From: an uncultured Lachnospiraceae bacterium | GTDB taxonomy: Bacteria; Bacillota; Clostridia; Lachnospirales; Lachnospiraceae | Reading direction: 5' to 3' | DNA length: 64,000 bases | NCBI GenBank assembly: GCA_902765725.1 | Contig: CACXAT010000004.1 | Coordinates: 1 to 64,000, forward strand | Shown: piece after piece, positions 5,870-9,848 of the stretch | Layout of the letters: every line of letters starts with the position of its first letter | Position numbering within the stretch: position 1 is the stretch's first letter | Translations under genes and position numbers: made by a program | The notes under the pieces: generated by a model | Told to the model about the DNA's origin: nothing | The model's database searches: none | The model's input: the letters and a program-made list of their open reading frames with translations, nothing else

Positions 5870-7846
5870 ATGACAGATATGAACGATTACATGAATGAGA
5901 ATATAGTGACCTTCACGAAGGAAGAGCTCGCTGACGCAGTGAAGGTCCCCCCTGTGGTGGAACAGGATCTTCGCCGCATCATCAGCGACCGGCTGGAGCA
6001 GTGCGGCCTGTACTACAGGTGCTTTTCCAGGATCAAGACGGCCCAGTCCATGGCCCGCAAGTTTGACATGAAGGACCTGAGCGAAGAGCACAAGCTGCAG
6101 GACCTGATCGGCGTCCGCATCAATCTGTATTTTGACGATGATGTGGATATCTGCAGGGACATCATGGCGCAGACCTTCGACGTCATAGAGTGGTCCACCT
6201 CCAAGCGGAGCGAGGATGAATTCAAACCGGCGAAGCTGAACGGAGTGTTCCGCCTGCCCACCTATCTGAAGGAAGAGATCTCTCCCCAGACCTGGAACAT
6301 GTGCATCGACGATACCTTTGAGATCCAGATCAAGACCATGTTCTTCGAGGGCTGGCATGAAGTCGAGCATGACATGAGATACAAGGGAGAGGAGCTGTGG
6401 AGCCATTATCCCGGATTCTCCCGGTATTTCAACTCGATCCTTGCCACGCTGGAGCTGTGCGACAAGTCCATGGTCACGCTGTTTGAGGATCTGGGACACG
6501 CGCTGTATAAGTCCGGCAGATGGAGCGACATGATCAAGAGTCATTTCCGCCTGAAGCTGGGAGAGGCGCAGCTTTATCCCGAGGTGGAACAGATCCTGAA
6601 TGAGGACATGAGCAGATCGGACAATCTGGCGAAACGGATCTTCCGCACGCCCAGACCGATCCTGATCGGCCAGCTGCTCTCCAGGACCCGCCATGTGCCG
6701 ATCAACGTCAATACCATCATCGCCCTTCTCAATGAGAGCATCTTCCATGATGACCGGCTTACTGCGGTGTTCAGGAAGATGGACGTCTTCAATGACGGAA
6801 GAGATGACTCGGAGGCGGAGTCCAGACACTACGAGCTGAGACCCTTCCGCCGGCATACCGTCTTCCAGATGGTGACGCGCATCGACGGAAACCGTATGAA
6901 GACCGATGAGGAGATCACGGAGGATCTTCTGTTCGAGGAGAGCGCGAAGCTGATCTGGCGCTGGCTTCGGATGAAGTACGGAGTTCTCTTCCACAATATG
7001 CCGGAGGAGGTGACGAGCTACCAGGCCTTCCTTCTGGCCTACCATATCGAGGTAAAGTACCGTCCCGAGGATCATGTGATGAAGATGCATGTCCGCCATA
7101 CCGACCCGGAGGCAATCGGACGGATCTGGTATTCGGAGGCGTGCCTTCACGAAGTGAAAGAGGGAGAGGGGACCCGGCAGGAGCAGACCCCGGGGATCTG
7201 GATCCGTATCGTGAACGGATACGCCCAGCCTGACCAGGAGGATTCGGCCACGGTGGAGGAAAAGTCCACGAACTTCTCCTATCCGGGCTTCTATAAGAAT
7301 ATAGTGGATATGATCGGAGTGGTCAGCTCTCTGCCCTGCAGCGGAAGGCGCAGGATCCTGAGGGAAGAGGACGCGGAGAAGGTCGCCCAGGCGATCATGG
7401 ATCCGGAACGCCAGTTCCCGCTGGTCCTTATCATTTCCAAGGATGATGGGAACGGCATGATGGATGAGGACTGGCTGATGCAGTTCCGCGTCTCGGATTT
7501 CACCAGGACCGTGTGGCGCTATGCCCATGTGCTGTGCTGCTATGAGGACGTGGGCCGGCAGATCCTGAAGCTGGCCGGGGACGTACGGTTCTCCAGTGAG
7601 CCGCAGGTTCCGAGATTCTATGTATACTGGCCGGACGGCACCCAGGATGATTACGGTGCGGATGACGTGGAAAACTGCGCATTCGGCAGGCACCTGGAGG
7701 CAAGAGGCGACGCGAGGACCTACGACATCGTATACGGCGGCCAGGCCTTCTATCACAAGATCGTGACAGATCTTCGCGACTGGAATGTGAACGCGAACAT
7801 GTGGAAGGGCTATCAGCTGGATGTGATGACCGGCATTCCTGATTGA
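5870..7846 (+). CDS. RelA/SpoT nucleotidyltransferase-fold protein with large C-terminal extension; substrate motif altered
   Basis: Residues ~40-190 have the alarmone synthetase fold: YYRCFSRIKTAQSMARKF (G-loop region), KLQDLIGVRINLYFDDD (metal-binding Asp) and FEIQIKTMFFEGWHEVEHD (catalytic Glu, then EHDMRYKG). The NGYxSxH element that stacks the acceptor nucleotide in (p)ppGpp synthetases reads NGVFRLP here, so Tyr and His are missing. After a helical region, the C-terminal ~250 residues (FYKNIVDMIGVVSSLP, QFPLVLIISKDDGNG, YAHVLCCYEDVGRQIL, PRFYVYWPDG) form a separate domain that I recognise only vaguely from uncharacterised large proteins. There are no HD, TGS or ACT domains, so this is not a long RSH enzyme. 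The start at 5870 has no convincing Shine-Dalgarno sequence. Candidate roles are a divergent pyrophosphokinase, a toxin/defence enzyme or a pseudoenzyme. Confidence 0.7.
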   Translation: MTDMNDYMNENIVTFTKEELADAVKVPPVVEQDLRRIISDRLEQCGLYYRCFSRIKTAQSMARKFDMKDLSEEHKLQDLIGVRINLYFDDDVDICRDIMAQTFDVIEWSTSKRSEDEFKPAKLNGVFRLPTYLKEEISPQTWNMCIDDTFEIQIKTMFFEGWHEVEHDMRYKGEELWSHYPGFSRYFNSILATLELCDKSMVTLFEDLGHALYKSGRWSDMIKSHFRLKLGEAQLYPEVEQILNEDMSRSDNLAKRIFRTPRPILIGQLLSRTRHVPINVNTIIALLNESIFHDDRLTAVFRKMDVFNDGRDDSEAESRHYELRPFRRHTVFQMVTRIDGNRMKTDEEITEDLLFEESAKLIWRWLRMKYGVLFHNMPEEVTSYQAFLLAYHIEVKYRPEDHVMKMHVRHTDPEAIGRIWYSEACLHEVKEGEGTRQEQTPGIWIRIVNGYAQPDQEDSATVEEKSTNFSYPGFYKNIVDMIGVVSSLPCSGRRRILREEDAEKVAQAIMDPERQFPLVLIISKDDGNGMMDEDWLMQFRVSDFTRTVWRYAHVLCCYEDVGRQILKLAGDVRFSSEPQVPRFYVYWPDGTQDDYGADDVENCAFGRHLEARGDARTYDIVYGGQAFYHKIVTDLRDWNVNANMWKGYQLDVMTGIPD

Positions 7847-8080: not shown

Positions 8081-8125
8081 GTGGCAAAAAGTGGTGAGTT
8101 GTGGGTCATAAGGGAGGAAATGTGG
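8081..8125 (+). promoter_or_regulatory. MraZ operator: 10-bp-phased GTGG boxes
   Basis: GTGG occurs at 8081, 8091 and 8101, exactly one helical turn apart, and again at 8122 about two turns later. Autorepression by MraZ through short direct repeats with ~10-bp phasing upstream of mraZ is established in other bacteria. The position here (after the -10 and ~50 nt before the mraZ start) fits. Confidence 0.82.
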
Positions 8126-8175: not shown

Positions 8176-8607
8176 ATGTTTTACGGTTCGTATAAAAACA
8201 TATTGGATGCCAAGGGCAGACTGATCGTCCCGAAGCAGTTCCGCGAACAGCTGGGAGCGGAATTCATGATCACAAGGGGACTGGATGGCTGTCTGTTCGC
8301 GTATCCGATGGATGAATGGGCTGACTTCGAGGAAAAGCTGTCAAAACTGCCGCTTACGAATAAGAAAGCCAGGACGGTCGTTCGATTCTTCGCTTCAGGC
8401 GCGACGCTCTGCGAGATGGACAAACAGGGAAGAGTCCTCATCCCGGAGAATTTAAGGGAGTTTGCCGGGATGCAGAAAGAGGTCGTTGTCGAGGGTTCCA
8501 TGAAGAGAGTGGAGCTCTGGAGCAAGGAGAAGTACATCGAGGCGACGTCGGCAGATGACATCGACGAGTCCATAGAAGCTCTCGACGGGCTGGATATCGA
8601 CCTGTAA
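8176..8607 (+). CDS. mraZ: Transcriptional regulator MraZ
   Basis: The 143-residue protein has two tandem SpoVT/AbrB-like MraZ domains: GSYKNILDAKGRLIVPKQFR and, later, CEMDKQGRVLIPENLREFAG. These assemble into a ring that binds direct repeats in front of the dcw operon. GAGAGGGAAG precedes the ATG. It is the first gene of the division cluster and is expected to regulate itself through the GTGG boxes upstream. The protein ends in an acidic tail. Confidence 0.97.
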   Translation: MFYGSYKNILDAKGRLIVPKQFREQLGAEFMITRGLDGCLFAYPMDEWADFEEKLSKLPLTNKKARTVVRFFASGATLCEMDKQGRVLIPENLREFAGMQKEVVVEGSMKRVELWSKEKYIEATSADDIDESIEALDGLDIDL

Positions 8608-8630
8608 GGAGGCCGTAGCCCGAAGAGGCG

Positions 8631-8806
8631 CTGCGAACCGTAGGGAGCGGAGAGCAGCGGAGCCGGAATGCTGTAGGGAGCAGCAGGAAGGAAGGCAGGC
8701 GCCGACAGGCTGTAGGGAGCAGCCTGATGGCAGAATTGCCCAAAAGCCGTAGGGAGCGGCCGGAAGGCAGGAGATGCCGGGAACTGTAGGGAGCGGTTCC
8801 GGGCAT
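8631..8806 (+). repeat. Array of five RNA hairpins sharing the loop TAGGGAG
   Basis: The 9-mer GTAGGGAGC occurs five times between mraZ and rsmH. Each copy is the apex of an inverted repeat with different stem bases. Loops lie at 8641-8647, 8674-8680, 8713-8719, 8750-8756 and 8787-8793. Stems: CCG/CGG plus outer CTGC/GCAG (copy 1); TGCTG/CAGCA (2); CAGGCTG/CAGCCTG (3); GCCG/CGGC plus outer TGCC/GGCA (4); a 13-bp stem with one G-G mismatch and one G-T pair, 8774-8786/8794-8806 (5). The region has no plausible ORF. Constant loops on varying, compensated stems indicate selection at the RNA level. The identity is unknown. Confidence 0.85.
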
Positions 8807-8870
8807 ATGGACAGAGATTCCCCGTGTTTCCAGGGGAGTGGAGACATGCGCGGGAAGAAAGGAGGAGCGT

Positions 8871-9848
8871 GTGGAATTCAGACACACATCAGTCCTCCTC
8901 AGAGAGACCGTTGATGCACTGCATGTCCGGCCGGACGGGATCTACGTCGACGGGACACTTGGCGGTGGCGGACATTCCAGTGTGATCGCAGGGAAGCTTT
9001 CTGAGGGAGGAAGGCTGATCGGGATCGACCAGGACGCCGCGGCGATCGAGGCAGCCGGAAAACGTCTCGGGGAGTTTGGTGACAGGGTCATGATCATCCG
9101 TTCCAATTACGCGGATATGAAGACCCGGCTTATGGAAACAGGTATCACATCAGTAGACGGAATCCTGCTGGATCTGGGAGTTTCTTCCTATCAGCTGGAT
9201 GATGCGGAGAGAGGATTCACGTACCGTGAAGAGGACGCACCTCTGGACATGCGTATGGACCAGAGGCAGGATTACACGGCGAGGGAGGTCGTTAATACCT
9301 GCAGTGTCGAGGAACTGACCCGTATTATAAGGGAATACGGGGAGGAGAAGTTCGCGGGAAAGATCGCCCGCCGCATCGAAGAAGAGCGGAAGAAGGGCCC
9401 GATTGAAACGACCGGTCAGCTGACGCAGATCGTGAAGGACGCCATCCCCGCAAGGGCAAGGGCGACGGGCAGACATCCGGCCAGAAGGACATTCCAGGCA
9501 ATCCGTATCGAGGTGAACGGGGAACTGCGTGTACTCAGGGAATCCCTTGACGACATGATAGATCTCCTGAATCCGGGCGGAAGGATCTGCATCATCACAT
9601 TTCATTCCCTTGAAGACCGCATCGTCAAGGATGCGTTTCGAAGGGCAGAGAATCCGTGCATATGTCCGCCGGAATTTCCGGTATGTGTGTGCGGAAGGAA
9701 ACCGAAGGGCAGGGTAATCACGAAGAAACCCATCCTCCCTTCCGAGGAAGAAATGGAGCAGAATCCACGTTCAAAAAGCGCGAAGCTGCGTGTATTTGAA
9801 AAGAGGGACACAGAGCATAATGGCACAGACAAAGATGGTACAGATTGA
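8871..9848 (+). CDS. rsmH: 16S rRNA (cytosine1402-N4)-methyltransferase RsmH
   Basis: SAM-dependent methylation of C1402 in 16S rRNA. It begins [16 protein letters not shown], with the SAM-binding [14 protein letters not shown] at residues ~22-35. [26 protein letters not shown] and [18 protein letters not shown] follow, all typical. The GTG at 8871 is preferred over the in-frame GTG at 8838 because AAAGGAGGAG lies 5 nt before it and because family members start at this point. Length is 325 residues. It overlaps ftsL by 29 nt. Confidence 0.95.

Follow-up and report, generated by a model that had tools for sequence, protein, structure and literature searches.

At the head of the dcw cluster of an uncultured Lachnospiraceae bacterium, between mraZ and rsmH (mraW), lies a row of hairpins that share one loop sequence, which raises the question of what this row is and what it might do for the gene behind it. 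Within the 64,000-nt stretch of DNA that was analysed (the window), and by comparison with related genomes, the row can be recognized as a real and apparently undescribed element, presumably an RNA leader of rsmH, that belongs to a single clade of rumen Lachnospiraceae. On balance, it is probably a clade-specific cis-regulatory element of rsmH, the GGGAG tips of which dock a trans-acting factor other than CsrA. With its support from covariation, the array is a strong candidate for a new RNA family, located at the head of an operon that is among the most conserved in bacteria.

The initial annotation reported five exact copies of GTAGGGAGC, each on an inverted repeat of its own and all in non-coding DNA between mraZ and rsmH, and the sequence bears this out (Table 1). 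The copies are found at 8640, 8673, 8712, 8749 and 8786 of the + strand, i.e., 33, 39, 37 and 37 nt apart, and the window contains no further exact copy. Their stems comprise 3+5 (with an internal loop), 5, 7, 4 and 7+5 bp (with a G-G mismatch); copy 5 therefore has the long arm pair that was described, but with 12 pairs instead of 13. Similarly, the 7-nt loop with G-C closure is constant in the window, but relatives also show closure by U-A and loops of 8 nt. In the RNAfold prediction, a U-G pair forms within the array loops and leaves the pentaloop AGGGA. Nearly all hairpins, those of relatives among them, have GGGA(G) in common. Positions 8605-8870 fold at -113.9 kcal/mol, compared to -87.7 ± 4.1 kcal/mol for shuffled sequences (z = -6.4); the 4-bp stem of hairpin 4 is absent from the minimum-energy fold of the region as a whole, yet present in the hairpin listing. 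The linkers (window 8726-8780 and others) carry GGCA..TGCC pairs, which can pair locally or lengthen the adjoining array hairpin, and given these pairs the array may adopt alternative folds. Two antisense open reading frames (8181-8885 and 8438-8887) were considered as a real gene and rejected, because the gap lengths of relatives (263, 226, 214, 194 nt and others) differ by non-multiples of three and the frame is not kept. The extent of the array had been given as 8631-8806, which does hold the five hairpins, but the structured region continues with a sixth, terminal hairpin and a hairpin at the ribosome binding site (RBS). The initial annotation mentions neither of these two, nor the confinement of the array to one clade.

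Table 1. Features of the mraZ-rsmH region, in window coordinates; loops are in brackets.
Feature	Position	Strand	Basis
mraZ, upstream gene	8176-8607	+	Pfam MraZ PF02381, E 4e-37
Array hairpin 1, GCTGC..CCG[TAGGGAG]CGG..GCAGC	8630-8658	+	Sequence, fold; R1 model match in own genome, E 0.001
Array hairpin 2, TGCTG[TAGGGAG]CAGCA	8669-8685	+	Sequence, fold, relatives, model match
Array hairpin 3, CAGGCTG[TAGGGAG]CAGCCTG	8706-8726	+	Sequence, fold, relatives, model match
Array hairpin 4, GCCG[TAGGGAG]CGGC	8746-8760	+	Sequence, model match, hairpin listing
Array hairpin 5, ATGCC-G-GGAACTG[TAGGGAG]CGGTTCC-G-GGCAT	8774-8806	+	Sequence, fold, relatives, model match
Sixth (terminal) hairpin, upper stem CGTGTTTCCA[GGGGAG]TGGAGACATG, lower stem TTCCC/GGGAA	8818-8856	+	Fold, relatives
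RBS hairpin	8860-8899	+	Predicted fold, relatives
rsmH (mraW), GTG start at 8871, presumed regulated	8871-9848	+	Pfam Methyltransf_5 PF01795, E 4e-127

The mraZ-rsmH gap was compared between the window, 17 further genomes of the genus and 156 other Lachnospirales. Among the 18 genus genomes with both genes and a readable gap, 13 carry the array, and these occupy one side of a single branch in the tree of MraZ and RsmH (support 94/94). Their gaps measure 152-294 nt, those of the five array-less members 40-44 nt, and those of the 156 other Lachnospirales have a median of 15.5 nt and a 90th percentile of 53.5 nt. Copy number differs between species, with about two to six hairpins per array. No equivalent with covarying GGGAG loops was found in the gaps of the 156 other Lachnospirales; one gap with two hairpins (L031) was considered and rejected as terminator-like. 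In a genome of another Lachnospiraceae genus (L087; G025:C66:8572-8656, minus strand), the gap holds three tandem GATTGC[GGA]GCAATT hairpins, exactly 37 nt apart, and TTGCGGAGCAA is found nowhere else in that genome; this is possibly a parallel case, or a plain tandem duplication.

Chance is a poor explanation for the repeated tips. In the 13 gaps, 30 stems of at least 4 pairs are tipped by AGGGAG, where 0.34 are expected and 500 dinucleotide shuffles reach a maximum of 3. When strong hairpins are listed without regard to the loop, and in this sense independently of it, 42 of 47 turn out to have GGGA in the loop; 40 shuffles yield on average 18.6 hairpins, 1.9 of them with GGGA (maximum 7). 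GGGA also tips hairpins that are built differently, for example CCTGGGGAGGT (L016) and CAGGGAGAAAA (L013). In the 27 hairpins with a seven-nt loop, 86.8% of the positions in the 7-pair stem are paired, with the caveat that selection by stem length favours pairing, and 34 double-sided changes are seen, compared to 13.2 after shuffling. Stem covariation amounts to 0.619 versus 0.278 in shuffled sets (reached in 0 of 500) and drops to at most 0.20 when the partner is slid by 1-3 columns. Because the hairpins in this test are partly paralogous, the changes are many and not merely inherited copies. Moreover, the stems contain 26 G-U pairs and 4 A-C mismatches, a count that is somewhat biased by the admission of G-U at selection, and the excess of G-U over A-C identifies the + strand (sense) RNA as the selected molecule. 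The proposal of a constant loop on covarying stems, selected as RNA, is thereby supported.

A palindromic repeat scattered over the genome could produce a similar picture at first sight. The reading as an inert mobile or palindromic DNA repeat of the REP type, or as a stem-loop spacer without a ligand, is in keeping with the species-dependent copy number, and such elements do exist in other Clostridia: in L079 (G075:C25), TTGCGGAGCAA is a dispersed, REP-like palindrome with 27 copies, one of which lies within the mraZ-rsmH gap, and it is unlike the window array. However, the array is not dispersed. The 2.5 Mb genome of the window contains 17 exact copies of GTAGGGAGC, compared to 16 for a reversed control; the 12 copies outside the array are thus at background level, and 0 of these 12 score as a hairpin of the array kind. 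When the best first-look candidates of each genome were scored with one 25-nt covariance model, the only matches at E ≤ 1 among the candidates from the window genome (G000) were the five array hairpins. Across the genus, nearly all matches below E 0.01 sit at the mraZ-rsmH locus, with one exception, a single hairpin at G003:C45:28044-28068 (L119; E 0.003), and in 298 other genera matches are single and about as numerous as expected. Together with compensatory stem changes under constant loops, the tolerance of stems for G-U but seldom A-C, and the retention of the array in 13 of 13 genomes, this makes an inert repeat very improbable, in agreement with the initial annotation, which had treated the array as something other than a dispersed element. 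Since the array exists at one locus only, it would act in cis.

The five array hairpins and the terminal hairpin together fill the mraZ-rsmH gap, and the array ends about 5 nt upstream of the rsmH Shine-Dalgarno (SD) sequence. The tip region of the terminal hairpin, CCA[GGGGAG]TGG, is a variant of the array type; GGGGAG precedes the rsmH SD in 13 of 13 array genomes, and the terminal stem covaries in A2 (0.502 versus 0.197 shuffled, reached in 0 of 500). Immediately downstream, the SD AGGAGGA (8860-8866) is predicted to pair with UCCUCCU of rsmH codons 8-10 (8893-8899), and GTGTG (8869-8873), which includes the GTG start, with CACAC of codons 5-6 (8883-8887). The RBS is predicted to be unpaired with a probability of 0.17-0.31 in the 13 genomes with the array and of 0.36-0.74 in the five genus members that lack it, to be read against the high GC content of the clade (0.54), which generally favours folding; values of 0.25 or less occur in just 2 of 156 outgroups. 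Predicted occlusion of the rsmH start site is therefore common to all 13 array genomes and rare elsewhere. Leucine codon 9 of rsmH is CTC or CTT in 13 of 13, though CTG accounts for 164 of the 263 leucine codons in genes of the window. The start-codon stem swaps GUG/CAC for AUG/CAU between clades: GUGUG/CACAC accompanies GTG starts, and GUAUG/CAUAC goes with ATG starts in the closest relatives that have no array. This pairing is partly a consequence of coding (start codon plus His codon), and in A3 only two pairs are changed on both sides. Compared to permutations of synonymous codons, SD occlusion falls between the 2nd and 24th percentile per single genome, which is suggestive, but not decisive taken one genome at a time. 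Since array and closed start co-occur on one branch, they count as one event.

The stop codon of mraZ overlaps a perfect SD-like sequence, TAAGGAGG (window 8604-8612), with no start codon close behind. TAAGGAG is kept at this position in 8 of the 13 array genomes; it may be what is left of a former rsmH start, or a site that holds ribosomes.

From these features we infer that rsmH is regulated and that a trans-acting factor docks on the leader, which would belong to the dcw operon, within its mraZ-rsmH-ftsL-pbp section. In the proposed mechanism, the GGGAG tips would serve as multivalent docking sites for a factor. Loaded there in cis, this factor would control the frequency with which the closed rsmH start opens; alternatively, it could set the stability of the rsmH end of the message. 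The default-closed start site suggests activation as the sign of regulation. The factor would most likely be an RNA-binding protein other than CsrA, more likely than a 30S subunit. Tentatively, and with rather less confidence than in the leader itself, it may be supposed that the GGGAG row loads a loop-binding protein of this kind or a 30S subunit in cis, and thereby opens a start that is sealed by its own coding sequence. If true, the cell-division cluster would have a regulated step at its head, namely rsmH and hence the methylation of the ribosomal P site at m4C1402. Such an array would also imply a GGGAG-loop-binding factor in Clostridia without csrA, and either outcome for the partner would be useful, be it a hitherto unknown protein that binds RNA or an array that loads ribosomes.

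The obvious candidate by form is CsrA, the binding of which to the loops had been suggested along with the question whether such arrays co-occur with csrA. ANGGA in many hairpin loops is the architecture of the CsrA sponges CsrB and RsmZ, the closest known RNAs in form, which likewise combine many hairpins, a GGA-containing loop and differing stems, and GGA in several apical loops, a trait of CsrA/Rsm targets, is present here in the GGGA of 42 of the 47 strong hairpins. However, the csrA family (PF02599) is missing from all 19 genomes of the genus, that of the window included; applied to E. coli, B. subtilis and T. maritima, this search does detect the family. The suggestion fails on this result, and a titration array of the CsrA/RsmA type is scarcely conceivable, unless csrA is too divergent for PF02599. 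Moreover, CsrB and RsmZ are free small RNAs, whereas the array would be a cis leader, and its loop is GGGA(G) throughout and not the general ANGGA.

A more serious alternative is the ribosome itself. SD-like GGGAG loops could keep 30S subunits close to the folded start of rsmH, which would be captured whenever the RBS hairpin breathes, or could act as decoys. Ribosome standby sites likewise combine a closed RBS with ribosome-accessible sites upstream; those known to us are single-stranded or simple, and we know of no described form with a row of identical loops. The loops are complementary to the 16S 3' end (family tail GGATCACCTCCTTT), with about -6.3 to -7.5 kcal/mol, and the cis-only distribution, the predicted start occlusion in 13 of 13 genomes and the SD-like TAAGGAG at the mraZ stop in 8 of 13 agree with such a role. 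Yet about 60 hexamers would pair equally well or better, AGGAGG would gain about 3 kcal/mol, and still the tips stay GGGA(G): neither AAGGA nor AGGAG occurs in any of the 47 hairpins, so that alternative SD-like forms are apparently not tolerated. The decoy role proposed in the initial annotation is therefore possible, though not favoured, as the loop can pair with the anti-SD but equal or better SD forms are missing, and docking of ribosomes as a whole appears unlikely. Near-invariance of GGGA(G) and the lack of AAGGA or AGGAG tips point to recognition that is more specific than SD pairing, most simply by a protein; it is this invariance of the loop sequence that argues for a protein over other partners. 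KhpA and KhpB, which bind RNA and act on division genes elsewhere in the Firmicutes, came into consideration as candidates. Alternatively, RsmH, a candidate as the product of the downstream gene, or another product of the operon could bind the loops as an rRNA mimic and repress its own translation. RsmH produces m4C1402 in 16S helix 44, the element occurs upstream of rsmH only, and the 16S rRNA of the family has CCAUGGGAGU about 12 nt after C1402, resembling the terminal hairpin CCAGGGGAGUGG. However, this GGGAG lies inside helix 44 and not in a loop, and since the terminal CCA/UGG covaries, the resemblance comes down to GGGAG, and any 5-mer would be expected to turn up by chance in 1.5 kb. 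RsmH is also thought to act on the assembled 30S subunit, and a search for a clade-specific domain in the RsmH of the clade found none; autoregulation is accordingly improbable. Little more can be said for the array as a source of a small RNA excised from the message, or as a sponge that captures a small RNA with a CUCCC seed. G-rich loops suit C-rich seeds, but pairing with a conserved CUCCC inside the neighbouring operon was considered and rejected, as none is conserved, and the + strand shows no nearby promoter-like site and no terminator, the mraZ-rsmH gap included. That dcw leaders can release small RNAs is indicated by UpsM in Rhodobacter (PMC5089854), but a role of this kind is doubtful here.

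Among known RNAs, the mraW motif (RF01746) comes closest in position; it is a candidate cis-regulatory RNA upstream of mraW (= rsmH) and is described for Actinomycetales only (PMC2864571). It shares the place in the leader of mraW/rsmH, but comes from a different phylum, and the leader gives no match to it even at E ≤ 10. An Rfam scan of the leader returned no family at gathering score and two weak matches with E about 8, i.e., chance. The extended dcw leader of Rhodobacteraceae, UpsM, is likewise a long structured RNA within the dcw cluster, but it precedes mraZ, has a terminator at its end and yields a small RNA, and its published abstract mentions no GGGAG-loop array (PMC5089854).

A DNA-level MraZ operator was rejected as the identity of the array, as MraZ boxes recur every 10 bp and the array every 33-39 nt. 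Upstream of mraZ, at window 8081-8115, GTGGC-N5-GTGGT-N5-GTGGG has the 10-bp period that we would expect of an MraZ operator; between it and the mraZ start stands a GGAAATG/CATTTCC hairpin. Directly upstream of the dcw cluster, window 5870-7846 encodes a 658-aa protein in which a RelA/SpoT domain (PF04607) is the only domain recognized.
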